Shown here: positions 2-52,364 of the stretch, piece after piece
Position numbering within the stretch: the first letter of the stretch is position 1
Layout: each line of letters begins with the position of its first letter
From: Lachnospiraceae bacterium oral taxon 096
GTDB taxonomy: Bacteria > Bacillota > Clostridia > Lachnospirales > Lachnospiraceae
Direction: 5' to 3'
Assembly: GCA_018141845.1 (NCBI GenBank)
Contig: CP073340.1
Location: 1,451,001-1,515,000 of the forward strand
DNA: 64,000 bases
Notes under the pieces: model-generated
The model's database searches: none
Told to the model about the DNA's origin: nothing
The model's input: the letters and a program-made list of their open reading frames with translations, nothing else
Position numbers and translations under genes: made by a program

Positions 2-76
2 AAGAAAAATTTGCTCTTTGATCAGCTTTCAGATGAAATGAAGCAAAAATTAGAGGATATTCGATTGGGAAAATAG
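2..76 (+). CDS. 3' end of an unidentified protein gene (partial)
   Basis: The first 25 codons of the window form an open frame ending in TAG, directly followed by an intrinsic terminator. The 24 residues are charged and helical-looking (Leu/Lys/Glu/Asp rich, ending RLGK). No family can be named from so short a tail. The following hairpin supports this being a true gene end. Confidence 0.55.
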   Translation, partial: KKNLLFDQLSDEMKQKLEDIRLGK

Positions 77-7804: not shown

Positions 7805-7935
7805 GTTAAAAAAATGGAGGCTAACAACTGTTAAGAGTAATTTATAAAAAAATTATAAATATGTGTTGATTTTTATAAGTTTTAATGATAGAATAAAATA
7901 TAAATATTGAAAAGGAGGCTTTAAGAACTTTAATT

Positions 7936-8553
7936 ATGAGTAAATACTATTCTATCAGAGAATTTTCAAGAATTTTAGGAGTATCAGCCCAAACACTTAG
8001 AAATTGGGATGCAAACGGTAAACTTCATCCACATCATGTGTCTAGTAATGGATACAGATATTATTCTCATGAACAATTAAATCAGGTTATGAATATAAAA
8101 TCTGATTTGAATAGAATTGTCATTGGATATTGCAGAGTTTCAAGCAATAAACAAAAAGATGATTTAGAAAGACAAATAGAGAATATGAAGCTGTATCTAA
8201 ATACTCAAGGGAAACCTTATGAAATAATTTCGGATATAGGTTCTGGAATTAATTATAAGAAAAAGGGTTTAAGAGAATTAATTAAACGTATATCTCAAAA
8301 TAAAGTGGAAAAAGTTGTAGTTCTTTACAAAGACAGACTACTAAGATTTGGATTTGAATTAGTTGAATATGTTGCAAGTTTATATAATTGTGACATAGAA
8401 ATAATTGATAATACAGAAAAATCAGAACAGCAAGAGCTTGTAGAAGATTTAGTTCAAATTATCACAGTTTTTAGTTGTAAATTACAAGGCAAACGTGCTA
8501 ATAAAGCTAGAAAATTAGTAAATGAATTAATTGAGGTTGACAGTGAAAAATGA
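7936..8553 (+). CDS. tnpA: IS607 serine recombinase (transposase TnpA)
   Basis: A 205-residue protein with an N-terminal MerR-like HTH (IREFSRILGVSAQTLRNWD, residues 7-25) followed by a small serine recombinase domain. The catalytic Ser lies in GYCRVSSNKQ (S69), and the conserved arginines are in KDRLLRFGFE. This reversed order, DNA-binding domain first, is the hallmark of IS607 transposases. The nearest GGAGG (7913-7917) is 18 bases from ATG, an unusually long distance, and both copies share it. The stop overlaps the tnpB start by four bases (ATGA). It should catalyse excision and insertion at GG sites. Confidence 0.95.
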   Translation: MSKYYSIREFSRILGVSAQTLRNWDANGKLHPHHVSSNGYRYYSHEQLNQVMNIKSDLNRIVIGYCRVSSNKQKDDLERQIENMKLYLNTQGKPYEIISDIGSGINYKKKGLRELIKRISQNKVEKVVVLYKDRLLRFGFELVEYVASLYNCDIEIIDNTEKSEQQELVEDLVQIITVFSCKLQGKRANKARKLVNELIEVDSEK

Positions 8554-9725
8554 TAAAATCAATAAAAATCAGACTATACCCAAATAATAAACAGATTACT
8601 AAACTATTTCAATATGCTGGATGTGCGAGATTTGCTTACAATTGGGCTATTGCAAAGGAACAAGAGAACTATAAGCAAAAAAATAAATTCTTATCGGATA
8701 ATGAATTACGAAAAGAATTTACACAGCTAAAGAAACTGCCAGAGTATAGATGGTTAAATGAAGTAAGTAATAATGTAACAAAGCAAGCAATCAAAGATGC
8801 TTGTAATGCCTATAAAAAATTTTTCAAAGGGCAATGCAAATATCCTAAATTTAAAAGTAAAAAGCATTCAACTCCTTCTTTTTATCAAGATACTGGTAAA
8901 ATTCAGTTTACAGATACTCATGTAAAAGTCGAAGGATTTTCAATGAGTAAAAGACGAAATAAACAAAAATTGAATTGGATTAGACTTTGTGAAAAAGAAA
9001 GAATACCAATTAACTGTAAATACTTAAATCCACGCTTTACATATGATGGATTGTATTGGTATGTATCCATTGGAATTGAAGTAGATGACAATAATAATCT
9101 TCCATCAAATGATGGTGTCGGAATTGATTTAGGTATTAAAAACTTAGCAGTTTGTTCTGATGGAAATACTTATAAGAACATAAATAAAACACAAAAAGTA
9201 AGAAAAATAGAAAAGAAAAAACGCAGGTTACAGCGTTCAATATCAAGAAGATATGAGAAAAATAAGAAAGGAGGCAGTTATTGTAAAACAAGTAACATAA
9301 TAAAAAGAGAAAAAGAACTTTTAAAAGTAATAAAACGATTAACAAATATTCGTCAAAACTACTTACATCAGACAACATCTGAAATCATAAAGCGAAAACC
9401 AAGTTTTATCTGTATGGAAGATTTGAATGTAAGTGGAATGATGAAAAATAAGCATTTATCCAAAGCAGTACAACAACAATGCTTTTATGAATTTAGAAAG
9501 CAGATTGAGTATAAGTCTAACTGGAATAATATTTCAGTCATTATAGCAGACAGATTCTTTCCAAGTTCTAAACTATGTAGTTGTTGTGGAAATATTAAAA
9601 AAGATTTGAAACTGTCTGACAGAATTTATAAATGTGAATGTGGAAACATCATAGATAGAGATTTTCAAGCAAGTTTGAATCTAAAGCAGTATGGAGAGAA
9701 TGTTTTAAAACAATCTGTAGTGTAA
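8550..9725 (+). CDS. tnpB: TnpB RNA-guided nuclease of IS607 copy 1
   Basis: A 391-residue TnpB, the ancestor type of Cas12. The RuvC residues are all present: Asp in GIDLGIKNLA, Glu in CMEDLNVSG, and Asp in IDRDFQASLNL. The zinc ribbon CSCC ... CECG lies between the last two. The N-terminal MIKSIKIRLYPN and FQYAGCARFAYNWA segments are typical. Nothing is truncated, so it is probably active. Family members cut DNA next to a target-adjacent motif under guidance of an RNA made from the element's right end, which helps keep the element at donor sites. Translation is coupled to tnpA by the ATGA overlap. Confidence 0.95.
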   Translation: MIKSIKIRLYPNNKQITKLFQYAGCARFAYNWAIAKEQENYKQKNKFLSDNELRKEFTQLKKLPEYRWLNEVSNNVTKQAIKDACNAYKKFFKGQCKYPKFKSKKHSTPSFYQDTGKIQFTDTHVKVEGFSMSKRRNKQKLNWIRLCEKERIPINCKYLNPRFTYDGLYWYVSIGIEVDDNNNLPSNDGVGIDLGIKNLAVCSDGNTYKNINKTQKVRKIEKKKRRLQRSISRRYEKNKKGGSYCKTSNIIKREKELLKVIKRLTNIRQNYLHQTTSEIIKRKPSFICMEDLNVSGMMKNKHLSKAVQQQCFYEFRKQIEYKSNWNNISVIIADRFFPSSKLCSCCGNIKKDLKLSDRIYKCECGNIIDRDFQASLNLKQYGENVLKQSVV

Positions 9726-9895
9726 CACTTTAAAGTTATTACAGATATGTACCGAACGTTAATAGGGAATTGACGCCTACGGAGAGTACAAGAACTTGTA
9801 ATTAGTATTTGAATTTATTCAGTATGAAAGCATACTCGATGAAGTAGGAATGAAACATAAAAGTTTATTAGCTTTTTATAAGTTTTCAGTAACGG
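9726..9895 (+). ncRNA. Putative TnpB guide (omega) RNA scaffold, copy 1
   Basis: The 170 bases between the tnpB stop and the right end contain no gene but ordered structure: hairpin AGTATG-AAAG-CATACT (9821-9836), the segment GATGAAGTAGGAAT, then a longer hairpin (9852-9863 with 9872-9887) ending eight bases before the element boundary. GATGAAGcAGGAAT followed by a terminal hairpin is characteristic of RNAs paired with TnpB. The guide would be the host sequence starting just after 9895. The 5' limit is not known and may lie inside tnpB. Confidence 0.7.
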
Positions 9896-9936
9896 AAGAG
9901 GAATAATTAGAGCTTTTCGGGCGTAGAGTGGCTTGA

Positions 9937-10056
9937 GTGGAAGATATTTTAGCTGCAGTTGATCCTGAGGACAATGATCTTTTAAATGATGCCATTATTG
10001 AAAATCAGCAGACCGTTGAGATGACCGACATCTACCGTGAAATCATTGATGGAACA
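9937..10056 (+). pseudogene. Fragment of a CorA-type magnesium transporter gene
   Basis: About 40 codons (EDILAAVDPEDNDLLNDAII, then ENQQTVEMTDIYREIIDGT) match the cytoplasmic helix leading into the first membrane segment of CorA proteins, where families read ENxxAIEM-xIYxxILxGT. The similarity breaks off right after GT, just before the membrane part should begin, and there is a stop immediately upstream in frame. Both ends of the gene are missing. The remnant lies between IS607 copy 1 and a tRNA. Family assignment is by motif memory, so confidence is moderate. Confidence 0.5.
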
Positions 10057-10109
10057 GGACAATATGTTCTAAAAAAAATAGGCCGTGGTATACCACAGCC
10101 TAAGATTCG

Positions 10110-10193
10110 TGCAGAAAAAGGGACTTGAACCCTCAAGGTATTGCTACCACACGGACCTGAACCGTGCGCGTCTGCCAATTCCGCCATTTCTGC
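10110..10193 (-). tRNA. tRNA-Leu (anticodon CAG)
   Basis: Class II tRNA with long variable arm. The acceptor GCAGAAA pairs with TTTCTGC, with discriminator A at 10110. The anticodon stem CACGG/CCGTG encloses TTCAGGT, giving CAG. The T arm is GAGGGTTCAAGTCCC. CCA is not encoded. Its promoter (minus) is TTGACT (10232-10227), 17 bases, TATACT (10209-10204). Confidence 0.95.
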
Positions 10194-10203
10194 TTGCCGT
10201 AAT

Positions 10204-10295
10204 AGTATAGGTGAAGTTAAAAGAAAAGTCAAGAGAATATATTTTTTTAAAAAATAAAAAAAGTGCTTGCATTATTTGAAAATAGATGATATACT
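10204..10295. promoter_or_regulatory. Divergent promoters for two leucine tRNAs
   Basis: On the minus strand TTGACT (10232-10227) and TATACT (10209-10204) are 17 bases apart and drive tRNA-Leu(CAG). On the plus strand TTGCAT (10267-10272) and TATACT (10290-10295) are 17 bases apart and drive tRNA-Leu(AAG). The region between them is A/T-rich. Confidence 0.8.
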
Positions 10296-10321
10296 CTTGA
10301 ATGTCCTTAAGAGAGGGATAT

Positions 10322-10405
10322 GCGGGGATGCTGGAATTGGCAGACAGGCTAGACTAAGGATCTAGTGATTGTATGATCGTGAGGGTTCAAGTCCCTTTTC
10401 CCGCA
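10322..10405 (+). tRNA. tRNA-Leu (anticodon AAG)
   Basis: Class II tRNA: the acceptor GCGGGGA pairs with TTCCCGC and the discriminator is A at 10405. The anticodon stem CTAGA/TCTAG encloses CTAAGGA, giving AAG. A long variable arm and GAGGGTTCAAGTCCC T arm follow. CCA is not encoded. A34 implies deamination to inosine to read CUU and CUC. A terminator follows at once. Confidence 0.95.
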
Positions 10406-10409
10406 CGGC

Positions 10410-10443
10410 AGAGAGCAGGAACGAGAGTTTCTGCTCTCTTTCT
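10410..10443 (+). terminator. Terminator of tRNA-Leu(AAG)
   Basis: AGAGAGCAG and CTGCTCTCT pair around GAACGAGAGTTT, followed by TTTCT. It separates the tRNA from the orphan RNA transcription unit downstream. Confidence 0.8.
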
Positions 10444-10468
10444 ATTGATATCATAGTAAAAATTAATA

Positions 10469-10497
10469 TTGCATATTTTCTTTAAGAATGTTATATT
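10469..10497 (+). promoter_or_regulatory. Promoter of the orphan RNA
   Basis: TTGCAT (10469-10474), a 17-base spacer and TATATT (10492-10497) form a good vegetative promoter, with the start expected at about 10503-10505, exactly where the RNA's closing stem begins. Confidence 0.75.
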
Positions 10498-10500
10498 TAG

Positions 10501-10866
10501 AAGGTATTATTTTTGATTGCAATCGGTAATACACGAAACTGCATTGAGAACCCAAGGTGGTGGATGACCGCCGTGTTGGCTAATGCACAGAGGGAGTGGA
10601 TGCAGGAGAGGGTAATGCAGTAGACACATTTGGAAGTAAGATTTAGAGATGCCCCGCAACAGAATTGATCACTTTGTTAGTATTGTAGCATCAATAACTT
10701 TTATCACTGAATGTTGGTTATGCCTAGTATGAGTAGTATTGAGCTGTGAACTGCAGATGTTAATGAGAAAATCCATAGGCGGCTTTTGTTTCGCAAGTGG
10801 AGCAGGAGTAATACCCTTGTTATCATTAAACTACGCGCCATATCATTTTTGATATGGCGTTTTTTC
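10501..10866 (+). ncRNA. Orphan structured RNA of about 365 nt, class not recognised
   Basis: This stretch has its own promoter and its own terminator, no credible reading frame on either strand, and long-range pairing. GGTATTA at the 5' end (10503-10509) pairs with TAATACC near the 3' end (10809-10815). TGCATT (10540-10545) pairs with AATGCA (10582-10587). Inside that, CCAA (10552-10555) pairs with TTGG (10576-10579) and GGTGGT (10556-10561) with ACCGCC (10567-10572) around GGATG. It ends in a perfect 10-bp terminator hairpin. It is not RNase P RNA (found elsewhere in the window), and lacks the tRNA-like end of tmRNA and the GGAAG-type S-domain loop of SRP RNA. It is also longer than typical 6S RNA. 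It could be a diverged known class. Confidence 0.7.
10836..10866 (+). terminator. Terminator of the orphan RNA
   Basis: A perfect 10-bp stem CGCCATATCA/TGATATGGCG with a TTTT loop is followed by six T. The tract is only on the plus strand, which fixes the RNA's orientation. Confidence 0.92.
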
Positions 10867-10875
10867 ATTTTCTGG

Positions 10876-10917
10876 GATATAATTAGGTAATGCTAATTAG
10901 GGATACCTAATTATATC
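10876..10917. repeat. Perfect 14-bp inverted repeat before the LRAT-like gene
   Basis: GATATAATTAGGTA (10876-10889) and its exact reverse complement (10904-10917) flank a 14-base spacer that itself contains TAATTAGG-like sequence. The right arm ends two bases before the GGGAGG ribosome site of the next gene. It could be an operator, a transcript hairpin affecting translation, or a footprint of a mobile element. No T tract follows, so it is not a terminator. Confidence 0.85.
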
Positions 10918-10929
10918 TGGGAGGTGAAT

Positions 10930-11634
10930 ATGTTACTTGCACTTGTGATTGCGGCAACAGTATTGAAAAAGAAGGTCGGAGATCGGCCAAATAGAGAGAG
11001 AAAAGTGAATGAAAGGGATACCGCATGGGAGAATGTGCAGGAGAATCAGATGTGGTGTTTGCAGAGATATCGAAAAAGTGACAGGGCAAGAATTCTCAAT
11101 GCACAAAATATTCAAATGGCGTGGGGCACATGGTCTGCGATGGAAGATAAGTTTTTTCGACTGAGCAGTGGACAATTTTTTAGAGCAGGTGATGTTATTG
11201 GAATTGACCGAGGACTGTATCGACATTTTGGAGTCTATGTGGGCGATGGAAAAGTGATTCACTACGCAGCAGATGATGGAGATTTTGGAAGAAATCCAAG
11301 CGTGAGAGAGACGACAATAAAAGATTTTAGTAAAAATATAGATGATATCTTTGTGTTGCATTTTCCAGGAGAGGGAAGGGCACCAGAGAAAATAAGAAAA
11401 AAGATGTCAAGACATTACAAAACAGAAAAAAGAGGCTTGTGTGACTTTTTATTTCGAGAAAAATATGAGTTGTTTTCAGCAGAAGAAACTGTAAAAAGAG
11501 CCTATCAAAGACTTGGGGAATGTGCCTATAATTTGACGAGAAATAATTGTGAACATTTTGCACTGTGGTGTAAGACAGGAGTTTCCGCTTCTAGGCAGGT
11601 GGATCGGTTTGTAAGTGAATTGGTTGGTATATAA
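10930..11634 (+). CDS. LRAT-domain (NlpC/P60-superfamily) protein
   Basis: A 234-residue protein. After a short hydrophobic N-terminus and a charged stretch comes an LRAT-like fold: GDVIGIDRGLYRHFGVYVGDG (88-107) with His99, a second His in VIHYA (111), and the catalytic-type NCEHF motif (206-210) with Cys207. LRAT proteins are permuted papain-like enzymes that use a His/His/Cys set for acyl transfer or hydrolysis of lipids or amides. In bacteria their roles are mostly unknown. ATG at 10930 is chosen because GGGAGG (10919-10924) is well placed; a GTG at 10924 overlaps that site. It stands alone between a terminator and the dnaG promoter. The substrate cannot be inferred. Confidence 0.8.
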   Translation: MLLALVIAATVLKKKVGDRPNRERKVNERDTAWENVQENQMWCLQRYRKSDRARILNAQNIQMAWGTWSAMEDKFFRLSSGQFFRAGDVIGIDRGLYRHFGVYVGDGKVIHYAADDGDFGRNPSVRETTIKDFSKNIDDIFVLHFPGEGRAPEKIRKKMSRHYKTEKRGLCDFLFREKYELFSAEETVKRAYQRLGECAYNLTRNNCEHFALWCKTGVSASRQVDRFVSELVGI

Positions 11635-11651
11635 TATAAAAAAGTAGTATA

Positions 11652-11689
11652 AAAAAGCTGTCGAGTGTGACAGCTTTTTGTGATATAAT
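11652..11689 (+). promoter_or_regulatory. Terminator of LRAT gene overlapping the dnaG promoter
   Basis: AAAGCTGTC and GACAGCTTT pair around GAGTGT, with TTTTT included at the end (to 11679): an intrinsic terminator. An extended -10, TG-A-TATAAT (11681-11689), begins two bases later and probably starts the dnaG operon. The -35 (TCGAGT, 11661-11666) is weak and lies inside the hairpin. Confidence 0.7.
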
Positions 11690-11720
11690 ACAAAAATATA
11701 TGTGAAAAAAGAAAGGAAGG

Positions 11721-13502
11721 ATGGACTTGTACTATTCAGAAGAAACAATTGAAGAGGTCAGATCAGCAAGTGATATAGTGGATGTTGTCTCTTCCTATGT
11801 GAAGATTCAAAAAAGAGGAGCCCAATATATGGGACTTTGCCCATTTCATAATGAGAAGACCCCTTCCTTTTCGGTATCGCCATCAAAGCAGATGTATTAC
11901 TGCTTTGGCTGTGGGGCTGGTGGAAATGTCATCACTTTTATTATGCAATATGAGAATCTAACTTTTATAGAGGCACTAAAGTTTCTAGCTGAGCGTTCAA
12001 ATATTGCATTGCCACAGAAAGAAGAAACACAAGGGGAAAGAAAGACTCGCAGTGAAAAAAATATTTTGTTAGAAATCAATAAATTGGCGGCAATGTATTT
12101 CTATCATCAACTCAGACAACCACAGGGGGATCAGGCCAGAGATTATTTGTTGGCAAGAGGATTATCTGCAGAGGACATTGTTCACTTTGGTCTGGGATTT
12201 TCAAATAAAACTTCGGATGACTTGTATCGCTATTTAAAGAGCAAAGGATATGACGATGCTATTTTAAAGCAAACAGGACTTGTGACGGTGGAAGAGCGGG
12301 GAAGCAGAGATAAGTTTTGGAATCGAGTGATGTTTCCTATTCTGGATGTCAATAGTCGAGTGATTGGCTTTGGTGGGCGAGTGATGGGCGATGGAATGCC
12401 CAAGTACTTGAATTCGCCGGAGACAAAATTATTTGACAAGAGTAAAAACTTGTATGGTCTTAATTTTGCACGCTATTCGAGGAAGGAGGATATGATTCTT
12501 TGCGAGGGATATATGGATGTGATTGCCCTTCAGCGGGCAGGATTTGTCAATGCAGTGGCTTCTCTTGGAACAGCACTGACCATTTCTCATGTTCAACTAC
12601 TTCGTCGGTATGTAAAGCGGGTGATTTTGGCCTATGATTCAGATGGAGCAGGAATCAATGCGGCCAGGCGAGCAATTGGGCTTTTGCGGGAAGCAGGAAT
12701 GAGTGCCCGAGTATTGAATATGCAGCCATACAAAGATCCAGATGAATTTATTAAAAATTTGGGCAAAGATGCCTATCAAGAGCGGATTGATCGGGCAAAA
12801 AATGCATTTTTGTGGGAAATTGATGTGCTTGAAAAAGAATTTGATCTTCATGATCCTGAGCAGCAGACGGATTTTCAGCGAAAAGTGGCCGAAAGATTGT
12901 GTAGCTTTCAGGACGGATTGGAGAGAGAAAACTATATGCAAGCTGTCTGCAAGGAGCATTTTATTGCCTATGAGGATATGCGTCGCATGGTCAATGGAAT
13001 GGGGGCACAAGTACAGCTACAAAATGCTATTCAAAGTCAGAGAGAGAAAGAAAAAGAAAAGCATTCGATCCAGCGCAGGGAAAAGGAAGATGGAATAAAA
13101 AAGAGTCAGAGGCTTTTACTCACTTGGATGATTGAGGATGCAAAGGTATTTGAAAAAATTAAAAACTATATCTCGCCCTCTGATTTCATTGAGAAAATTT
13201 ATCAAGATGTGGCAACAAGGATCTATCAAGATTATGAAAAGGGTGTGGTAAATCCCGCAGCGATTCTTGATGAATATATGGAAGATGAGGAGTTACAAAA
13301 ACAGATTACCAGGCTATTTCATGCAGAGCTTTTAGGGGAGGTGACAGAGAAAGAGAAGAAGAAGGCAATGGAAGAGAGTATTTTGAAATTGAAGTTGGCC
13401 AGTCTTGACTTGCGTGCAAAGTCAGCACTCAGTCCGACACAATTTCAAGAAATTATTTTAGAGCAGGCACAATGGAGAAAGAAGGGAGTACATATTGAAT
13501 AG
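11721..13502 (+). CDS. dnaG: DNA primase
   Basis: A 593-residue primase that makes RNA primers for replication. The N-terminal CHC2 zinc site is Cys40, His43, Cys61 and Cys64 (CPFH ... CFGC). The TOPRIM catalytic core follows with Glu262 in ILCEGYMDVIAL and the acidic AYDSDGAG and KDPDEFI motifs. The C-terminal region, which usually binds the DnaB helicase, is present. An AAGGAAGG site precedes ATG at 11721. The stop overlaps the trmK start by one base. The rpoD gene that usually follows dnaG in Firmicutes is not here. Confidence 0.97.
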   Translation: MDLYYSEETIEEVRSASDIVDVVSSYVKIQKRGAQYMGLCPFHNEKTPSFSVSPSKQMYYCFGCGAGGNVITFIMQYENLTFIEALKFLAERSNIALPQKEETQGERKTRSEKNILLEINKLAAMYFYHQLRQPQGDQARDYLLARGLSAEDIVHFGLGFSNKTSDDLYRYLKSKGYDDAILKQTGLVTVEERGSRDKFWNRVMFPILDVNSRVIGFGGRVMGDGMPKYLNSPETKLFDKSKNLYGLNFARYSRKEDMILCEGYMDVIALQRAGFVNAVASLGTALTISHVQLLRRYVKRVILAYDSDGAGINAARRAIGLLREAGMSARVLNMQPYKDPDEFIKNLGKDAYQERIDRAKNAFLWEIDVLEKEFDLHDPEQQTDFQRKVAERLCSFQDGLERENYMQAVCKEHFIAYEDMRRMVNGMGAQVQLQNAIQSQREKEKEKHSIQRREKEDGIKKSQRLLLTWMIEDAKVFEKIKNYISPSDFIEKIYQDVATRIYQDYEKGVVNPAAILDEYMEDEELQKQITRLFHAELLGEVTEKEKKKAMEESILKLKLASLDLRAKSALSPTQFQEIILEQAQWRKKGVHIE

Positions 13503-16652: not shown

Positions 16653-17000
16653 GTTCTTGAGTAAGACAGATGGTCGCGGCTACAATGCCGAAAGGTAGTA
16701 GGTGAGGAAAGTCCGGGCTTCGCAGGGCAAGATGCCAGATAACGTCTGGTGGAGGTGACTCCAAGGACAGTGCAACAGAAATATACCGCCAGGAAACTGG
16801 TAAGGGTGGAAGGGTGGTGTAAGAGACCACCGCCCCTGTGGTAACACAGGGGGGATATGTAAACCCCATCTGAAGCAAGACCGAACAGAACGAAGGGCGG
16901 CCCGTCCATGTTCAGGTAGGTTGCTCGAGCATATTGGCGACAATATGCCTAGATAGATGACCATTTGATACATAACCCGGCTTACAGTTTTGCTCAAGGA
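16653..17000 (+). ncRNA. rnpB: RNase P RNA (bacterial type A-like)
   Basis: All landmark segments are present: GAGGAAAGTCCGGGCT near the 5' end, GACAGTGCAACAGAAA, GACCGAACAGAAC-type conserved core and the 3' TTACAG element. The ends pair as P1, with CTTGAG at 16656-16661 and CTCAAG at 16993-16998. It is the catalytic RNA that trims 5' leaders from pre-tRNAs. The terminator at 17013-17052 ends it. Confidence 0.97.
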
Positions 17001-24730: not shown

Positions 24731-24851
24731 TGAAGGGCTAACAACTGTTAAGAGTAATTTATAAAAAATTATAAATATGTGTTGATTTTTATAAGTTTTA
24801 ATGATAGAATAAAATATAAATATTGAAAAGGAGGCTTTAAGAACTTTAATT

Positions 24852-25469
24852 ATGAGTAAATACTATTCTATCAGAGAATTTTCAAGAATTTTAGGAGTAT
24901 CAGCCCAAACACTTAGAAATTGGGATGCAAACGGTAAACTTCATCCACATCATGTGTCTAGTAATGGATACAGATATTATTCTCATGAACAATTAAATCA
25001 GGTTATGAATATAAAATCTGATTTGAATAGAATTGTCATTGGATATTGCAGAGTTTCAAGCAATAAACAAAAAGATGATTTAGAAAGACAAATAGAGAAT
25101 ATGAAGCTGTATCTAAATGCTCAAGGGAAACCTTATGAAATAATTTCGGATATAGGTTCTGGAATTAATTATAAGAAAAAGGGTTTAAGAGAATTAATTA
25201 AACGTATATCTCAAAATAAAGTGGAAAAAGTTGTAGTTCTTTACAAAGACAGACTACTAAGATTTGGATTTGAATTAGTTGAATATGTTGCAAGTTTATA
25301 TAATTGTGACATAGAAATAATTGATAATACAGAAAAATCAGAACAGCAAGAGCTTGTAGAAGATTTAGTTCAAATTATCACAGTTTTTAGTTGTAAATTA
25401 CAAGACAAACATGCTAATAAAGCTAGAGAATTAGTAAATGAATTAATTGAGGTTGACAGTGAAAAATGA
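24852..25469 (+). CDS. tnpA: IS607 serine recombinase (transposase TnpA), copy 2
   Basis: 205 residues, same MerR-like HTH plus serine recombinase layout as copy 1 with the catalytic Ser in CRVSSNKQ. It differs from copy 1 by four amino acids: Thr-to-Ala in LNxQGKPYE, Gly-to-Asp and Arg-to-His in LQxKxANKA, and Lys-to-Glu in ARxLV. No silent difference was seen. All catalytic residues are kept, so both copies may be functional. Three of the changes cluster near the C-terminus. Confidence 0.95.
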   Translation: MSKYYSIREFSRILGVSAQTLRNWDANGKLHPHHVSSNGYRYYSHEQLNQVMNIKSDLNRIVIGYCRVSSNKQKDDLERQIENMKLYLNAQGKPYEIISDIGSGINYKKKGLRELIKRISQNKVEKVVVLYKDRLLRFGFELVEYVASLYNCDIEIIDNTEKSEQQELVEDLVQIITVFSCKLQDKHANKARELVNELIEVDSEK

Positions 25470-26641
25470 TAAAATCAATAAAAATCAGACTATACCCAAA
25501 TAATAAACAGATTACTAAACTATTTCAATATGCTGGATGTGCGAGATTTGCTTACAATTGGGCTATTGCAAAGGAACAAGAGAACGATAAGCAAAAAAAT
25601 AAATTCTTATCGGATAATGAATTACGAAAAGAATTTACACAGCTAAAGAAACTGCCAGAGTATAGATGGTTAAATGAAGTAAGTAATAATGTAACAAAGC
25701 AAGCAATCAAAGATGCTTGTAATGCCTATAAAAAATTTTTCAAAGGGCAATGCAAATATCCTAAATTTAAAAGTAAAAAGCATTCAACTCCTTCTTTTTA
25801 TCAAGATACTGGTAAAATTCAGTTTACAGATACTCATGTAAAAGTCGAAGGATTTTCAATGAGTAAAAGACGAAATAAACAAAAATTGAATTGGATTAGA
25901 CTTTGTGAAAAAGAAAGAATACCAATTAACTGTAAATACTTAAATCCACGCTTTACATATGATGGATTGTATTGGTATGTATCCATTGGAATTGAAGTAG
26001 ATGACAATAATAATCTTCCATCAAATGATGGTGTCGGAATTGATTTAGGTATTAAAAACTTAGCAGTTTGTTCTGATGGAAATACTTATAAGAACATAAA
26101 TAAAACACAAAAAGTAAGAAAAATAGAAAAGAAAAAACGCAGGTTACAGCGTTCAATATCAAGAAGATATGAGAAAAATAAGAAAGGAGGCAGTTATTGT
26201 AAAACAAGTAACATAATAAAAAGAGAAAAAGAACTTTTAAAAGTAATAAAACGATTAACAAATATTCGTCAAAACTACTTACATCAGACAACATCTGAAA
26301 TCATAAAGCGAAAACCAAGTTTTATCTGTATGGAAGATTTGAATGTAAGTGGAATGATGAAAAATAAGCATTTATCCAAAGCAGTACAACAACAATGCTT
26401 TTATGAATTTAGAAAGCAGATTGAGTATAAGTCTAAGTGGAATAATATTTCAGTCATTATAGCAGACAGATTCTTTCCAAGTTCTAAACTATGTAGTTGT
26501 TGTGGAAATATTAAAAAAGATTTGAAACTGTCTGACAGAATTTATAAATGTGAATGTGGAAACATCATAGATAGAGATTTTCAAGCAAGTTTGAATCTAA
26601 AGCAGTATGGAGAGAATGTTTTAAAACAATCTGTAGTGTAA
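25466..26641 (+). CDS. tnpB: TnpB RNA-guided nuclease of IS607 copy 2
   Basis: 391 residues with an intact RuvC triad (GIDLGIKN, CMEDLN, IDRDFQAS) and zinc ribbon. Only two residues differ from copy 1: Tyr-to-Asp in QENxKQKN and Asn-to-Lys in YKSxWNN. Start overlaps the tnpA stop as ATGA. If active, this protein could use RNA made from either right end, since the scaffolds are almost identical. Confidence 0.95.
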   Translation: MIKSIKIRLYPNNKQITKLFQYAGCARFAYNWAIAKEQENDKQKNKFLSDNELRKEFTQLKKLPEYRWLNEVSNNVTKQAIKDACNAYKKFFKGQCKYPKFKSKKHSTPSFYQDTGKIQFTDTHVKVEGFSMSKRRNKQKLNWIRLCEKERIPINCKYLNPRFTYDGLYWYVSIGIEVDDNNNLPSNDGVGIDLGIKNLAVCSDGNTYKNINKTQKVRKIEKKKRRLQRSISRRYEKNKKGGSYCKTSNIIKREKELLKVIKRLTNIRQNYLHQTTSEIIKRKPSFICMEDLNVSGMMKNKHLSKAVQQQCFYEFRKQIEYKSKWNNISVIIADRFFPSSKLCSCCGNIKKDLKLSDRIYKCECGNIIDRDFQASLNLKQYGENVLKQSVV

Positions 26642-26811
26642 CACTTTAAAGTTATTACAGATATGTACCGAACGTTAATCGGGAATTGACGCCTACGGAG
26701 AGTACAAGAACTTGTAATTAGTATTTGAATTTATTCAGTATGAAAGCATACTCGATGAAGTAGGAATGAAACATAAAAGTTTATTAGCTTTTTATAAGTT
26801 TTCAGTAACGG
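26642..26811 (+). ncRNA. Putative TnpB guide (omega) RNA scaffold, copy 2
   Basis: Same right-end structure as copy 1, with a single base change (AATCGGG for AATAGGG at about 26680). The guide would start right after 26811, reading AAATGATGGACAATTATC, which is the beginning of the M42 peptidase gene. It would thus point to the unoccupied version of this very site. Confidence 0.7.
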
Positions 26812-26813
26812 AA

Positions 26814-36900: not shown

Positions 36901-38437
36901 AATTTATGATTTAAAAAATGCCAATAAGAGAGCAAGAATTTCTGTCAAATTAGTTAGCGAGGCAGGCGTGGGAACGATTGCTGCTGGTGTAGCCAAGGCA
37001 GGGGCACAGGTTGTATTGATTTCTGGCTATGATGGCGGAACAGGAGCAGCACCACTAAGTTCTATTCACAATGCAGGTCTTCCTTGGGAGCTTGGACTTG
37101 CAGAGACACATCAGACATTGATTCAAAATGGATTGAGAAAGAGAGTGGTTATTGAGACAGATGGAAAGTTAATGTCAGGAAAGGATGTTGCGATTGCTGC
37201 CATTCTTGGTGCAGAGGAGTTTGGATTTGCAACGGCTCCACTGGTCACTTTAGGATGTGTGATGATGAGGGTTTGTAATCTTGACACCTGTCCAATGGGC
37301 GTGGCCACACAAAATCCAGAGTTGAGAAAACGCTTTGTTGGAAAGCCAGAATATGTAGAAAACTTTATGAGATTTATTGCCATGGAGCTTCGAGAGTATA
37401 TGGCAAAACTTGGCGTAAAAACCGTGGATGAGCTTGTGGGAAGAACAGATCTTTTAAAGAAGAAAGAAGAACTTTCTGGTGTAGCAAAGAAAATTGACTT
37501 GAGTAAGATCTTATATAGAGAAGAAAATGTCACCTTTGACCCAAGTGCTCAGTATGATTTTAAGCTGGAAAAGACAAAGGATGAAGCTGTCCTTTTAAAA
37601 GATAAGGCCGTACTAGAGGCATTAGAAAAGGGAAAGAAGGCAAGAATATCGGCACACATTGGAAATACAGATCGAACATTTGCAACACTGCTTGGTGCTC
37701 AACTTACCCGCCTTCATCACAATGGACTGGAGGAAGATACAATCACCATTGACTGCCAGGGGGCAGGTGGACAAAGCTTTGGGGCCTTTATTCCAAAGGG
37801 ATTGACACTTGATCTGGTAGGTGATGCAAATGACTATCTTGGAAAGGGACTTTCTGGTGGAAAAATTATAGTGAAAGCACCAAAGGATGCAGGATATAAT
37901 CCACATGAGAATATTATTGTGGGAAATGTTGCTCTCTATGGGGCAACATCAGGAGAGACTTATATTGCAGGTATGGCTGGAGAAAGATTTTGTGTGAGAA
38001 ATTCAGGTGCGATTGCCGTTGTCGAGGGAGTCGGAGAACATGGCTGCGAGTATATGACAGGTGGTAGAGCTGTAATTTTGGGAACGACAGGAAAGAACTT
38101 TGCTGCGGGTATGAGTGGTGGTGTTGCTTATGTCTATGACGAGGACAATAAATTGTATCGAAACCTGAATAAGGGAATGGTCTTGATGGAAAAGATGGAA
38201 AATAAGACTGACCGAGAGGAATTAAGAAGTATTCTGGAAAAACATTTGCACTACACAGGTTCAAAAAAGGCAGAGCAGATTTTAGCAAATTTTGAGGAAA
38301 ATCTCATGAAGTTTAAAAAGATTATTCCAGAAGACTATAAGAAGTTGATTGGCTTGACTGTGATGTATGAAGAGCAGGGAATGAGTAGAGAAGATGCACA
38401 AATTGAAGCATTTTATGCTGCGACAGGAAATAAGTAG
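33914..38437 (+). CDS. gltB: Glutamate synthase (NADPH) large subunit
   Basis: A 1507-residue enzyme that makes two glutamates from glutamine and 2-oxoglutarate. The N-terminal amidotransferase domain has nucleophile Cys17 in DNCGIGAVV after a 16-residue leader that should be removed. The central and FMN-binding synthase domains follow, with SNSGEGGE, KPGEGGHLPAKKV, SPPPHHDIYSIEDL and the 3Fe-4S motif CVMMRVCNLDTC (C-x5-C-x4-C). The GXGXG beta-helix domain closes the protein. The start is TTG at 33914, seven bases after GGAGG; no ATG fits. It lies between glnA and gltD. Confidence 0.97.
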   Translation: MKCNRGLYRADFEHDNCGIGAVVNIKGNQTHALVDDALKIVENLEHRAGKDADEKTGDGVGILTQIPHNFLKKICKKEEIELGDARSYAVGMFFFPQNELQKRQSQKMFEVITKKAGLKFLGWRKVPVNQEVLGTKALKSMPDIYQGFVERPKKAKQDIDFDRILYVIRREFEQSSTHTYVLSLSCRTIVYKGMFLVGQLRTFFLDLQDKDYCSAIAMVHSRFSTNTNPSWERAHPNRMLVHNGEINTIKGNVDKMLAREETMSSVHFSDEEMTSVFPVVSSQGSDSAMLDNTLEFLVMSGMELPLAASILIPEPWAHNDTISQEVRDFYQYYATMMEPWDGPASILYSDGDVMGAILDRNGLRPSRYYLTNDDRLILSSEVGVLPIDECNIVRKERLHPGKILLVDTKKGRIFTDEELKERYATKEPYGEWLDMNLLTMDKIKMPNARIKNFEKEDFCRLLKSFGYNYEEYTEEIEAMARTGNELVGAMGIDTPLAVLSKEYQPLFSYFKQLFAQVTNPPIDSIREKIVTSMSVYLGTNGNLLSEQPENCHVLKLDSPILSDLDLLRIESIQAPGFQVARVPITYYKSTPMERVLEHLFVEVDKVYREGANILILSDRGVDENHVAIPSLLAVAAVHGHLVRTKKATAMSIILESGEPRVVHHFATLLGFGASAVNPYLAHAAIQKLCREDLLEKDYYAAVSDYDMAVSTGIVKIASKMGISTIQSYQGSKMFEAIGIDQKVIDQYFTGVVSPVGGVTLEDIERATDEQHSKAFDPLGLYVDLTIESKGMHKMRSGGEEHRYNPATIHLLQKSTRDGDYEEFKQYTQMVDREETGYLRSLMDFAYPEKGIKLDEVESVENIVKRFKTGAMSYGSISQEAHEAMAIAMNRLKGKSNSGEGGESDERLESAGTAHDRSSAIKQVASGRFGVTSRYLGSAKEIQIKLAQGAKPGEGGHLPAKKVYPWVAKTRHSTPGVSLISPPPHHDIYSIEDLAQLIYDLKNANKRARISVKLVSEAGVGTIAAGVAKAGAQVVLISGYDGGTGAAPLSSIHNAGLPWELGLAETHQTLIQNGLRKRVVIETDGKLMSGKDVAIAAILGAEEFGFATAPLVTLGCVMMRVCNLDTCPMGVATQNPELRKRFVGKPEYVENFMRFIAMELREYMAKLGVKTVDELVGRTDLLKKKEELSGVAKKIDLSKILYREENVTFDPSAQYDFKLEKTKDEAVLLKDKAVLEALEKGKKARISAHIGNTDRTFATLLGAQLTRLHHNGLEEDTITIDCQGAGGQSFGAFIPKGLTLDLVGDANDYLGKGLSGGKIIVKAPKDAGYNPHENIIVGNVALYGATSGETYIAGMAGERFCVRNSGAIAVVEGVGEHGCEYMTGGRAVILGTTGKNFAAGMSGGVAYVYDEDNKLYRNLNKGMVLMEKMENKTDREELRSILEKHLHYTGSKKAEQILANFEENLMKFKKIIPEDYKKLIGLTVMYEEQGMSREDAQIEAFYAATGNK

Positions 38438-38447
38438 GAGAGGGAAT

Positions 38448-39950
38448 ATGGGAAAGACTACAGGATTTTTAGAATATGAGCGCAGGACGGGAGATAGTGT
38501 CTCTGCGGACAAGAGAATAAAAAACTTTGATGAATTCCATGCAACTCTCTCATTGGAGGAACAGCAGGAACAGGGAGCAAGATGTATGGCCTGTGGAGTG
38601 CCATTTTGTCAATATGGTGGCATGATTGCAGGAATGACTTCGGGTTGTCCGCTTCATAATTTGGTGCCAGAATTTAATGACCTTGTCTACAGAGGTCGAT
38701 GGGAACAGGCATATGAGCGATTAGAAAAGACGCATGATCTGGCTGAGTTTACCTGTAAGGTTTGTCCAGCACTCTGTGAAAAGGCCTGCACTTGTGGAGC
38801 CAATGGGGAGCCAGTGTCTACTAAAGAAAATGAGAGAGCCATTATAGAATATGCGTATGCTCATGATCTAGTTAAGGAGATTTGCCCAAGTGCACGCACA
38901 GGAAAAAGAATTGCCATTGTCGGAAGTGGCCCAGCTGGACTTGCTGCTGCCCAGATGCTCAATCGCCGTGGACATTTGGTGACCGTATTTGAGCGAAATG
39001 ACCGAGTGGGCGGATTATTGCGCTATGGTATTCCAAATATGAAGTTGGATAAAAGGAATATTGACCGAAGAGTTAGGCTTTTAGAAGAGGCGGGAGTGGA
39101 ATTTGTCTGCAACACAAATGTCGGTGTGGATGTTACGGCAGAGGATTTGCAGTCAAAATTCGACCGAATTATTCTTTGCTGTGGTGCGTCTAAACCAAGG
39201 GACTTGGCTGTCAAGGGAAGAAATGCCAAGGGGATTTACTTTGCTGTTGATTTTTTGTCTGAAGTGAGCAAAAAGTTAATGGATTTTGACTATGATAGCG
39301 AAAGAGTGATGGAAAGTCGAGATTTTAGCTTTGAGAGTGTCAAGGGCAAGAAAGTTGTTATTGTTGGCGGTGGAGATACAGGAAATGACTGTGTTGGAAC
39401 AAGCATTCGACTTGGTGCGGCAAGTGTTGTTCAAATTGAGATGATGCCAAAGCCACCAGTAAAGAGAAGTGAAAAAAATTCATGGCCAGAGTGGCCTAAG
39501 GTTCTCAATACAGACTACGGTCAGGAAGAGGCGATTGCAAAATTTGGTCACGACCCAAGAGTTTATCAAACGACAATTAAGGAGATTGTGGCGGATAAAA
39601 ATGGCAATGTAAAATCTGTTATCACTGTGTCTTTAGAGCCAAAAATAGATGAAAAGACAAAGAAAATCAATATGATTGCCATTGAGGGAAGCGAAAAGGA
39701 AATCCCTGCTGATCTAGTATTGATTGCTGCTGGGTTTATTGGTGCACAGGACTATGTCAAGGAAGCATTTCAGACGGATTCAGATGCAAAAGGAAATATC
39801 TTGTCCAATCGAGCATTTGAGACATCAAAGAAAAATATTTTTGCTGCGGGAGATGTTCGCAGAGGACAATCCTTAGTTGTGTGGGCAATGGCTGAAGGAA
39901 GAGCGGTTGCAAAAAGTGTAGATGAATCTTTGATGGGCTATACAAATTAA
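38448..39950 (+). CDS. gltD: Glutamate synthase (NADPH) small subunit
   Basis: A 500-residue FAD/NADPH oxidoreductase that feeds electrons to GltB. The N-terminal region has two Cys clusters for [4Fe-4S]: CMACGVPFCQ and CKVCPALCEKAC. The FAD fold reads IAIVGSGPAGLAAAQML and the NADPH fold VVIVGGGDTGNDCVG. The C-terminal NIFAAGDVRRGQSLVVWA is typical. ATG at 38448 follows GGAGAGGG, ten bases after gltB. It is the last gene of the operon. Confidence 0.97.
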   Translation: MGKTTGFLEYERRTGDSVSADKRIKNFDEFHATLSLEEQQEQGARCMACGVPFCQYGGMIAGMTSGCPLHNLVPEFNDLVYRGRWEQAYERLEKTHDLAEFTCKVCPALCEKACTCGANGEPVSTKENERAIIEYAYAHDLVKEICPSARTGKRIAIVGSGPAGLAAAQMLNRRGHLVTVFERNDRVGGLLRYGIPNMKLDKRNIDRRVRLLEEAGVEFVCNTNVGVDVTAEDLQSKFDRIILCCGASKPRDLAVKGRNAKGIYFAVDFLSEVSKKLMDFDYDSERVMESRDFSFESVKGKKVVIVGGGDTGNDCVGTSIRLGAASVVQIEMMPKPPVKRSEKNSWPEWPKVLNTDYGQEEAIAKFGHDPRVYQTTIKEIVADKNGNVKSVITVSLEPKIDEKTKKINMIAIEGSEKEIPADLVLIAAGFIGAQDYVKEAFQTDSDAKGNILSNRAFETSKKNIFAAGDVRRGQSLVVWAMAEGRAVAKSVDESLMGYTN

Positions 39951-42285: not shown

Positions 42286-43014
42286 ATGAAACAGAAGGAA
42301 AAGACAGTAATTTCGGTGGGAGAACCGATTATTATTGTAAAAAATTTATATAAATTTTACCAAGCAGGAAGTGAAAAAGTACATGCACTGGATGGTTTGG
42401 ATTTTGAAATCAATAAGGGCGAATTTTGTGCGATTATTGGTCCATCGGGATCGGGAAAATCGACATTGCTCAATATGCTTGCCGGTCTTGAAAAACCAAG
42501 TAGAGGCGAAATTATTATTAATGGAAAACATATTGAAAAATTGAATGAAAATCAACTTGTGCGGTTTCGAAGGGATCATATTGGATTTATCTTTCAAAGT
42601 TATAATTTGTTGCAGACGATGAATGCGGTAGAAAATGTGGCTATGCCATTGATGTTTCGTGGAGTAGCCAAGGCAAAGCGAACGGAGATTGCAAAGGAGT
42701 ATTTGCGATTGGTGGGACTAGAAAAATATATGTATCACAAGGGAAATGCGATGAGTGGAGGTCAACAGCAACGAGTGGGCATTGCCAGAGCACTGGCGAT
42801 GCAACCAGATATTATTTTTGCCGATGAGCCAACTGGAAATTTGGATACAAAGACAACAGCAGAAGTTCTTGAATTGATGCAAAAGATCGTGAAAGAGAAA
42901 CATCAGACTTTGATTATGGTCACGCACGATCCAGAAATTGCAGGTTTTGCCGACCGACAGATTCGCATTGTTGATGGAAAAATTAACAATGAATTTCGGC
43001 TAGATATTGTGTAG
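42286..43014 (+). CDS. ABC exporter ATP-binding protein (MacB/LolD type)
   Basis: A 242-residue ATPase: Walker A IGPSGSGKST, Q-loop FIFQSYNLLQTM, signature MSGGQQQRVGIARA, Walker B IIFADEPTGNLD and H-loop VTHDPE. This is the class that works with FtsX/MacB-like permeases as a mechanical or export machine. The gene is the first of a three-gene operon with a surface-anchored protein and the matching permease. The first 12 residues before the ABC domain are extra relative to typical LolD. Substrate unknown. Confidence 0.93.
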   Translation: MKQKEKTVISVGEPIIIVKNLYKFYQAGSEKVHALDGLDFEINKGEFCAIIGPSGSGKSTLLNMLAGLEKPSRGEIIINGKHIEKLNENQLVRFRRDHIGFIFQSYNLLQTMNAVENVAMPLMFRGVAKAKRTEIAKEYLRLVGLEKYMYHKGNAMSGGQQQRVGIARALAMQPDIIFADEPTGNLDTKTTAEVLELMQKIVKEKHQTLIMVTHDPEIAGFADRQIRIVDGKINNEFRLDIV

Positions 43015-46272: not shown

Positions 46273-46424
46273 TTGTAAAAAGAATAAATTTTTAGTATAA
46301 TCAAAGAGCATATAACTGGCGAAGTGGAGCACCACAGGGAGTATGTAGATAGAAAATGTCGACCGCCTGGGCAGAACAAAGGTATCAATAGGTATTTTTG
46401 TTTTGTTTTGGCGGTTATTTTTTT
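46273..46424 (+). promoter_or_regulatory. Promoter and ZTP (pfl) riboswitch with terminator
   Basis: TTGTAA (46273-46278), 17 bases and TATAAT (46296-46301) form the promoter. The aptamer (about 46311-46375) has the pfl landmarks ACTGGCGAAGTGG, CCACAGGGAG and the diagnostic CCGCCTGGGCAG (46363-46374). ACCGCC within that last motif can also pair with GGCGGT (46410-46415), giving a terminator followed by TATTTTTTT. Ligand binding would keep ACCGCC in the aptamer and prevent termination. ZTP/ZMP accumulates when 10-formyl-tetrahydrofolate is short, and the genes downstream are the purine enzymes using that step. Confidence 0.93.
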
Positions 46425-51632: not shown

Positions 51633-52364
51633 ATGAAAGAAATTATTCGTTTAGAGAATTTGGTAAAAATCTATGACACAGGTGCAGTGCGAGTACTGGG
51701 GCTAAAAAAGATTTCTTTGAGCATTCAGCAGGGAGAGTTTGTGGCCATTATGGGGCATTCGGGTTCAGGAAAATCGACATTGCTCAATATTTTGGGATGT
51801 CTTGACCGACCAAGCCTTGGCGATTATTATCTTGACGGCATCAATGTGGCCAAGATGAGTCAGGATGAACTCAGCCGTGTGCGAAATGCAAAACTTGGAT
51901 TTGTCTTTCAGTCCTTTAATTTGATCAGCCGAATGAGCATTTTAAAAAATGTAGAGGTTCCAATGACCTATGCTCGTGTAAAACCATCAAAGCGAAGGGA
52001 AAGAGCAATGGAGTTACTTGCAATGGTTGGACTTTCCGAACGAATGAATCATGAGCCAAATGAGCTTTCTGGAGGTCAGCGACAGAGAGTGGCTATTGCC
52101 AGAGCACTCTCGAATCGTCCGCCCCTTATTCTTGCAGATGAGCCGACGGGAAACTTGGATTCTCAGGCATCAGTGGAGATTATGGAGCTCTTTGCCCAGT
52201 TAAATGCCCAGGGCAATACGGTGATTGTAGTTACACATGAGGACAATATTGCCCAATATGCCCATCGCATTCTCACCTTTAATGATGGCGTGATGATTTC
52301 TGATGAAATCAATCAAAATCCAACACCGATTACAGAAGGAGGAGGAATTCATCGTGTTAGTTGA
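51633..52364 (+). CDS. ABC exporter ATP-binding protein (MacB type)
   Basis: A 243-residue ATPase: Walker A GHSGSGKST, Q-loop FQSFNLISRM, signature LSGGQRQRVAIARA, Walker B LILADEPTGNLD and H-loop VTHEDN. It starts three bases after the adaptor gene and its end overlaps the permease start by 11 bases, so all three are co-translated. The arrangement adaptor-ATPase-permease is the usual Firmicutes MacAB-like order, used for peptides or antimicrobial compounds in known members. Confidence 0.94.
   Translation: MKEIIRLENLVKIYDTGAVRVLGLKKISLSIQQGEFVAIMGHSGSGKSTLLNILGCLDRPSLGDYYLDGINVAKMSQDELSRVRNAKLGFVFQSFNLISRMSILKNVEVPMTYARVKPSKRRERAMELLAMVGLSERMNHEPNELSGGQRQRVAIARALSNRPPLILADEPTGNLDSQASVEIMELFAQLNAQGNTVIVVTHEDNIAQYAHRILTFNDGVMISDEINQNPTPITEGGGIHRVS

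Follow-up and report, generated by a model that had tools for sequence, protein, structure and literature searches.

A putative orphan transcription unit of about 360 nt between tRNA-Leu(AAG) and an LRAT-domain gene in Lachnospiraceae bacterium oral taxon 096

We have analysed a stretch of 64,000 nucleotides from the genome of Lachnospiraceae bacterium oral taxon 096 (hereafter the window), in which 523 bases without a convincing gene separate tRNA-Leu(AAG) from an LRAT-domain gene. This gap contains what is probably an independent transcription unit, credible from its promoter, its terminator and its base composition. The likeliest reading, to which we give about even odds, is a lineage-limited orphan intergenic small-RNA gene of ca. 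360 nt, and such an sRNA may possibly be non-functional. The initial annotation had gone further and described a large structured RNA with no recognised class; a new class of this kind is not demonstrated by the sequence, since the searches turned up no relative and the larger part of the stretch folds like chance. The features discussed are the following (window coordinates).

10322-10406: tRNA-Leu(AAG), upstream of the candidate
10469..10497, plus strand: sigma-70-like promoter TTGCAT-17-TATATT (TTGCAT 10469-10474, 17-nt spacer, TATATT 10492-10497)
10503..10832, plus strand: putative transcript body (core without terminator), non-coding by hexamer score
10503..10607, plus strand: 5' domain, a hairpin (10504-10532) and a branched hairpin (10539-10605), beating shuffles
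10556..10572, plus strand: GGTGGT-GGATG-ACCGCC hairpin (GGTGGT 10556-10561 / ACCGCC 10567-10572), pair probability (P) about 0.95
10608..10818, plus strand: 3' domain, a predicted fold closed by GAGGGTA/TACCCTT (10608-10614 / 10812-10818)
10835..10866, plus strand: intrinsic terminator, stem-loop 10835-10860 followed by a T run
10878..10915, plus strand: near-palindrome TATAATTAGGTAATGCTAATTAGGGATACCTAATTATA, probably serving the LRAT gene as promoter/operator, outside the RNA
10930..11634, plus strand: LRAT-domain gene downstream of the candidate, an ORF with its start codon taken at 10930 and its stop at 11634

Both flanks named in the initial annotation are in place, the tRNA at 10322-10406 and the LRAT gene by its Pfam match (91.6 bits, E 5.9e-26). 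Directly 3' of the tRNA there is a terminator-like hairpin (10410-10439), so the candidate unit probably starts afresh. The promoter also lies where it had been reported, and its pattern (TTGCAT-16..18-TATANT) has 26 matches in the 2.24-Mb genome, against a single one for the pattern read backwards. Nine of these belong to one repeated element present in identical copies; judged by eye, ten of the other 17 directly precede either a tRNA or a gene start that has a ribosome site, one is the candidate and six are unclear or within genes. The window holds two matches, the candidate's and one preceding tRNA-Leu(AAG), where 0.34 would be expected, and two were reached in 2 of 100 shuffles. A generic sigma-70 scan of 10000-11800 found no excess of sites (6 vs. 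5.3 in shuffles) and omits the candidate's promoter, whose -35 box deviates too far from the consensus. At the other end lies a strong, one-sided terminator whose T run, as had been claimed, is found on the plus strand alone; terminator-like sites in 10000-11800 number 4, compared with 1.0 in shuffles.

The G+C content rises from 16% at 10440-10502 to 47% at 10503-10660, a step that falls at the predicted start and coincides with the promoter, and then declines to 36% at 10661-10832 and 32% at 10867-10929. The core as a whole (41%) is little above the pooled gaps of the window (37.6%), a pool in which crude gene calling left some genes, e.g., the ORF 38394-39950. No coding frame was apparent, the best-frame hexamer score being -0.36 vs. 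a 5th percentile of 0.45 among 140 coding pieces, and pieces of 110 nt showed no coding trace by the same score either. A Pfam search with seven stop-free pieces of the candidate returned nothing credible (a single holin match, E 0.1). When 325 ORF translations from the loci of 11 relatives were compared with 10200-11000, matches at E ≤ 0.001 were confined to the tRNA and the LRAT gene; inside the candidate none was significant (best E 0.006 per query), the dgt gene of the metagenome-assembled genome SIG333 included. On the Pfam search and these translations a degenerate protein gene was rejected. Promoter, terminator, G+C step and lack of a coding frame together support what the earlier reading had called a transcription unit without a gene and, as in an orphan intergenic sRNA, promoter and terminator enclose a non-coding stretch. 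RNA polymerase would start near 10503 from the sigma-70-type promoter and stop at the terminator near 10865, releasing a free transcript of ca. 360 nt that encodes no protein. Judging from its sequence, this transcript would be made and be stable; its only well-supported structured parts, the terminator hairpin and the first 105 nt, would provide stability. The likeliest function, if there is any, would be the one usual for such RNAs: as a guess, the 3' two thirds, where structure is weak, may pair with mRNAs.

How much of the ca. 365 nt is structured can be judged against shuffled sequences. With its terminator the transcript has a z of -2.24 (3 of 100 shuffles fold as well), but the 330-nt core without it is no better than chance (z -0.81, 18 of 100 shuffles, or -0.98, 30 of 200), and 16 of 40 random 330-nt windows taken here reach z ≤ -0.81 (40 shuffles each). 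The RNase P RNA of the same window gives z -4.3 with 0 of 100. On the other hand tRNA-Leu itself scores only -1.3 (35 of 300), which shows that function is compatible with a poor z. The plus strand folds better than the minus strand both with the terminator (-2.24 vs. -0.73) and without it (-0.98 vs. +1.2). Taken separately, the 5' domain stands out (z -2.4, 4 of 300 shuffles as good) more than 10608-10818 (z -1.45, 12 of 200), bearing in mind that the borders of both were taken from the predicted fold, a choice that favours both in these tests. Structure is well supported in the 5' domain and in the terminator, but the proposed architecture of ca. 365 nt is not supported.

The individual helices fared unevenly as well. 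Both strands of the proposed closing helix, GGTATTA (10503-10509) and TAATACC (10809-10815), are present and the first begins at the predicted start; in the core ensemble, however, they pair with P about 0.18, in competition with a local hairpin (P 0.62) and with 10608-10614/10812-10818 (P 0.77), and a 7-bp closing helix arises in 125 of 2000 shuffles, which is not clearly above chance. All strands of the proposed nested hairpin exist too, and its inner part, GGTGGT/ACCGCC, is retained at high probability, while the outer stems TGCATT (10540-10545) / AATGCA (10582-10587) and CCAA (10552-10555) / TTGG (10576-10579) have P 0.01-0.03, being outcompeted in the core by CTGCATT (10539-10545) / GATGCAG (10599-10605), P 0.96. 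Folded alone, the hairpin 10540-10588 is stable (0 of 200 shuffles as good); if the selection of this 49-nt piece as the best is allowed for, an equally stable hairpin turned up in 4 of 150 shuffles.

The absence of a recognised class was upheld by a search with the covariance models of Rfam 15, in which no family reached its gathering cut-off over the candidate. Permissive thresholds gave seven matches, all sub-threshold. The best score belonged to the PyrG leader (RF02371), 26 bits vs. a cut-off of 65 and aligned over the terminator hairpin, and the next by E-value was RAGATH-22 (RF03098), 16.4 bits vs. 120.3, so that the candidate scores far under both. The earlier exclusion of RNase P RNA, tmRNA and 6S RNA proved correct, all three being located elsewhere in the genome: RNase P RNA at 16658-17000 of the window (290 bits), tmRNA at G000:C1:1216244-1216582 (135 bits; ARAGORN found none in the window) and 6S RNA at G000:C1:1228195-1228374 (61.7 bits). 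The SRP RNA models had no match in the window at gathering cut-offs and none among the seven permissive matches over the candidate. Elsewhere in the window we noticed a ZMP/ZTP riboswitch (46302-46379, 51 bits) and two stretches, 42425-42859 and 51738-52173, that are 66.5% alike over 442 aligned bases.

The candidate is single-copy in its own genome at E ≤ 0.001. By blastn it was found in one of 41 genomes, its own, whereas the RNase P RNA of the same window was found in 41 of 41; none of the 40 relatives is of the same genus, and this set overlaps the 396 other genomes of the family. Among the 397 family genomes (own included), 298 had some blastn match at E ≤ 1, the best non-self one being of 29 bp (E 4.8e-5 per genome). 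Matches of this size are expected over so many genomes and were rejected as chance. In 28 of the 29 family loci that were fetched, all but L031, the match falls within an open stretch of 100 codons or more, and each locus contains a single matching piece only; those in MatE transporters (L003, L007) and in a carbamoyl-phosphate synthase gene (L006) were likewise rejected as chance. The named genomes searched number seven (SIG333, Lachnospiraceae oral taxon 107 and five of Lachnoanaerobaculum); all carry the query's tRNA-Leu, and one of them gave the best match to the candidate (50 bases, 78%, E 0.005, around 10468-10517). A single-sequence covariance model of 10503-10607 (R1) recovered only itself in 8 genomes, and itself plus one match of 25.9 bits (G073) in the 397 family genomes. 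The latter lies within a carbamoyl-phosphate synthase gene and was rejected as chance. A similar model of 10608-10760 (R2) recovered only itself in the 397, although single-sequence models are weak and the 397-genome searches were filtered more strictly, which may have hidden diverged homologues. Plasmid and phage records had no match to the candidate, nor did viral contigs contain any of three exact patterns. With no homologue in the 40 relatives, the 396 family genomes (overlapping sets) or the seven named genomes, there is no sign of selection on the candidate.

The surroundings of the candidate are disturbed, with an IS607 insertion 0.6 kb upstream and a gene of SIG333 absent. SIG333 has infC and rplT first, then other genes, two tRNA-Leu, an HD-domain gene that we take to be dgt-like, and dnaG (54% over 564 residues to the dnaG-like protein of the window). 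The position of the dgt-like gene is occupied in the window by the candidate together with the LRAT gene, and no trace of a dgt-like gene was detected at the candidate locus. The IS607-type copy (7819-9897) encodes a resolvase with a MerR-type HTH and a TnpB/Cas12f-like protein; it is 99.6% identical to a second one at 24736-26813, and each has a RAGATH-18 RNA near its 3' end. Guide RNAs of IS607 TnpB derived from RAGATH-18 are already published (PMC11061315). A short ORF (9937-10128) between the IS607 end and tRNA-Leu(CAG) resembles the tail of a truncated protein gene, and a Pfam search of it gave nothing at E 0.01.

There are several other explanations for these observations. One would be that the stretch is non-functional leftover DNA of a rearranged intergenic region, with a promoter and terminator that are fortuitous or inherited and any transcript being noise. 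The lack of a homologue in the sets searched, a core fold that resembles random windows, the dgt-like gene that SIG333 has between the tRNA-Leu pair and dnaG instead of this stretch and the LRAT gene, and the nearby IS607 copy are all consistent with it. We nevertheless regard it as rather doubtful, given that neither the ORF translations of the relatives nor the hexamer score of short pieces detected a remnant of a gene and that the promoter coincides with the G+C step. Another alternative, which we find improbable, is that the LRAT gene has the candidate as its 5' leader, with a regulated terminator at its end as in an attenuator or a riboswitch-like element. It is on the same strand and the terminator ends 64 nt upstream of the LRAT start codon, the 5' GTATTA has two possible partners, a local one and the TAATACC close to the 3' end, and the 3' arm of the terminator could pair with 10569-10579 in one weak helix (11 pairs, 6 Watson-Crick). 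However, the 5' arm finds at most 6 pairs (4 Watson-Crick), neither of these alternative pairings forms in predicted folds, the terminator keeps pair probabilities of 0.91-1.0 when the transcript is folded as far as 10930, and a best fold computed with the terminator disallowed leaves its bases without partners. No convincing antiterminator emerged from these folds, and no riboswitch family matched. Moreover, the six LRAT genes of the five Lachnoanaerobaculum and oral taxon 107 (51-56% identity) do without such a leader: inspected by eye, their loci contain nothing equivalent to the candidate and have a different gene a short way upstream, no tRNA was found in the six and no Rfam RNA in the four scanned, and a promoter with CCTAACTT-rich boxes directly precedes the LRAT gene. 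These boxes are similar in kind, by eye, to the TTAGGTAATGCTAATTAGGGATACCTAA palindrome that stands directly upstream of the LRAT gene in the window. The LRAT gene thus probably has its own regulated promoter, to judge from these upstream regions, and this argues against the candidate as its leader. The palindromic TTAGGTAA-type box at 10878-10915, preceding the LRAT gene, appears to resemble the consensus of a DtxR/IdeR-type metal-regulator operator, a putative assignment.

A small messenger RNA is highly improbable. The two short ORFs, of 27 aa (10649-10732) and 31 aa (10757-10852), both have an ATG and, by eye, a hydrophobic stretch, but no good ribosome-binding site lies ahead of either, the coding score is negative, the 31-aa peptide had no tblastn match in plasmids and its ORF runs into the terminator stem. 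A very slim chance is also what we give to a genus-restricted RNA of 360 nt in which the two-hairpin 5' domain of ca. 105 nt would be a new functional RNA, perhaps controlled by the choice of GTATTA between local and long-range closing pairing. The least probable of all is the new, widespread class of large structured RNA of the initial annotation. The 5' domain that beats shuffles and the lack of an Rfam match speak for it, and against it stand the blastn count of 1 of 41 genomes vs. 41 of 41 for RNase P, the two single-sequence models with only the carbamoyl-phosphate synthase match in 396 other family genomes, and a whole-core fold not above chance. This is a case for caution, as a promoter, a terminator and hand-picked stems can mimic a structured RNA class in a stretch for which no homologue was found and which folds at chance level once its terminator is removed. 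The orphan small-RNA reading would, if the unit is transcribed, add to the candidate sRNAs of a Lachnospiraceae-type lineage that has been sparsely sampled.

Compared with known systems, the candidate resembles the housekeeping RNAs in its length (similar to RNase P RNA and tmRNA) and in independent transcription, which is putative here, but it matches none of RNase P RNA, tmRNA and 6S RNA and is not conserved in the relatives searched. Orphan bacterial sRNAs are mostly shorter than the ca. 360 nt of the candidate, which here is predicted from its sequence. With the orphan lineage-specific intergenic sRNAs it nonetheless shares a sigma-70-like promoter, an intrinsic terminator, a non-coding sequence and a short phylogenetic reach.
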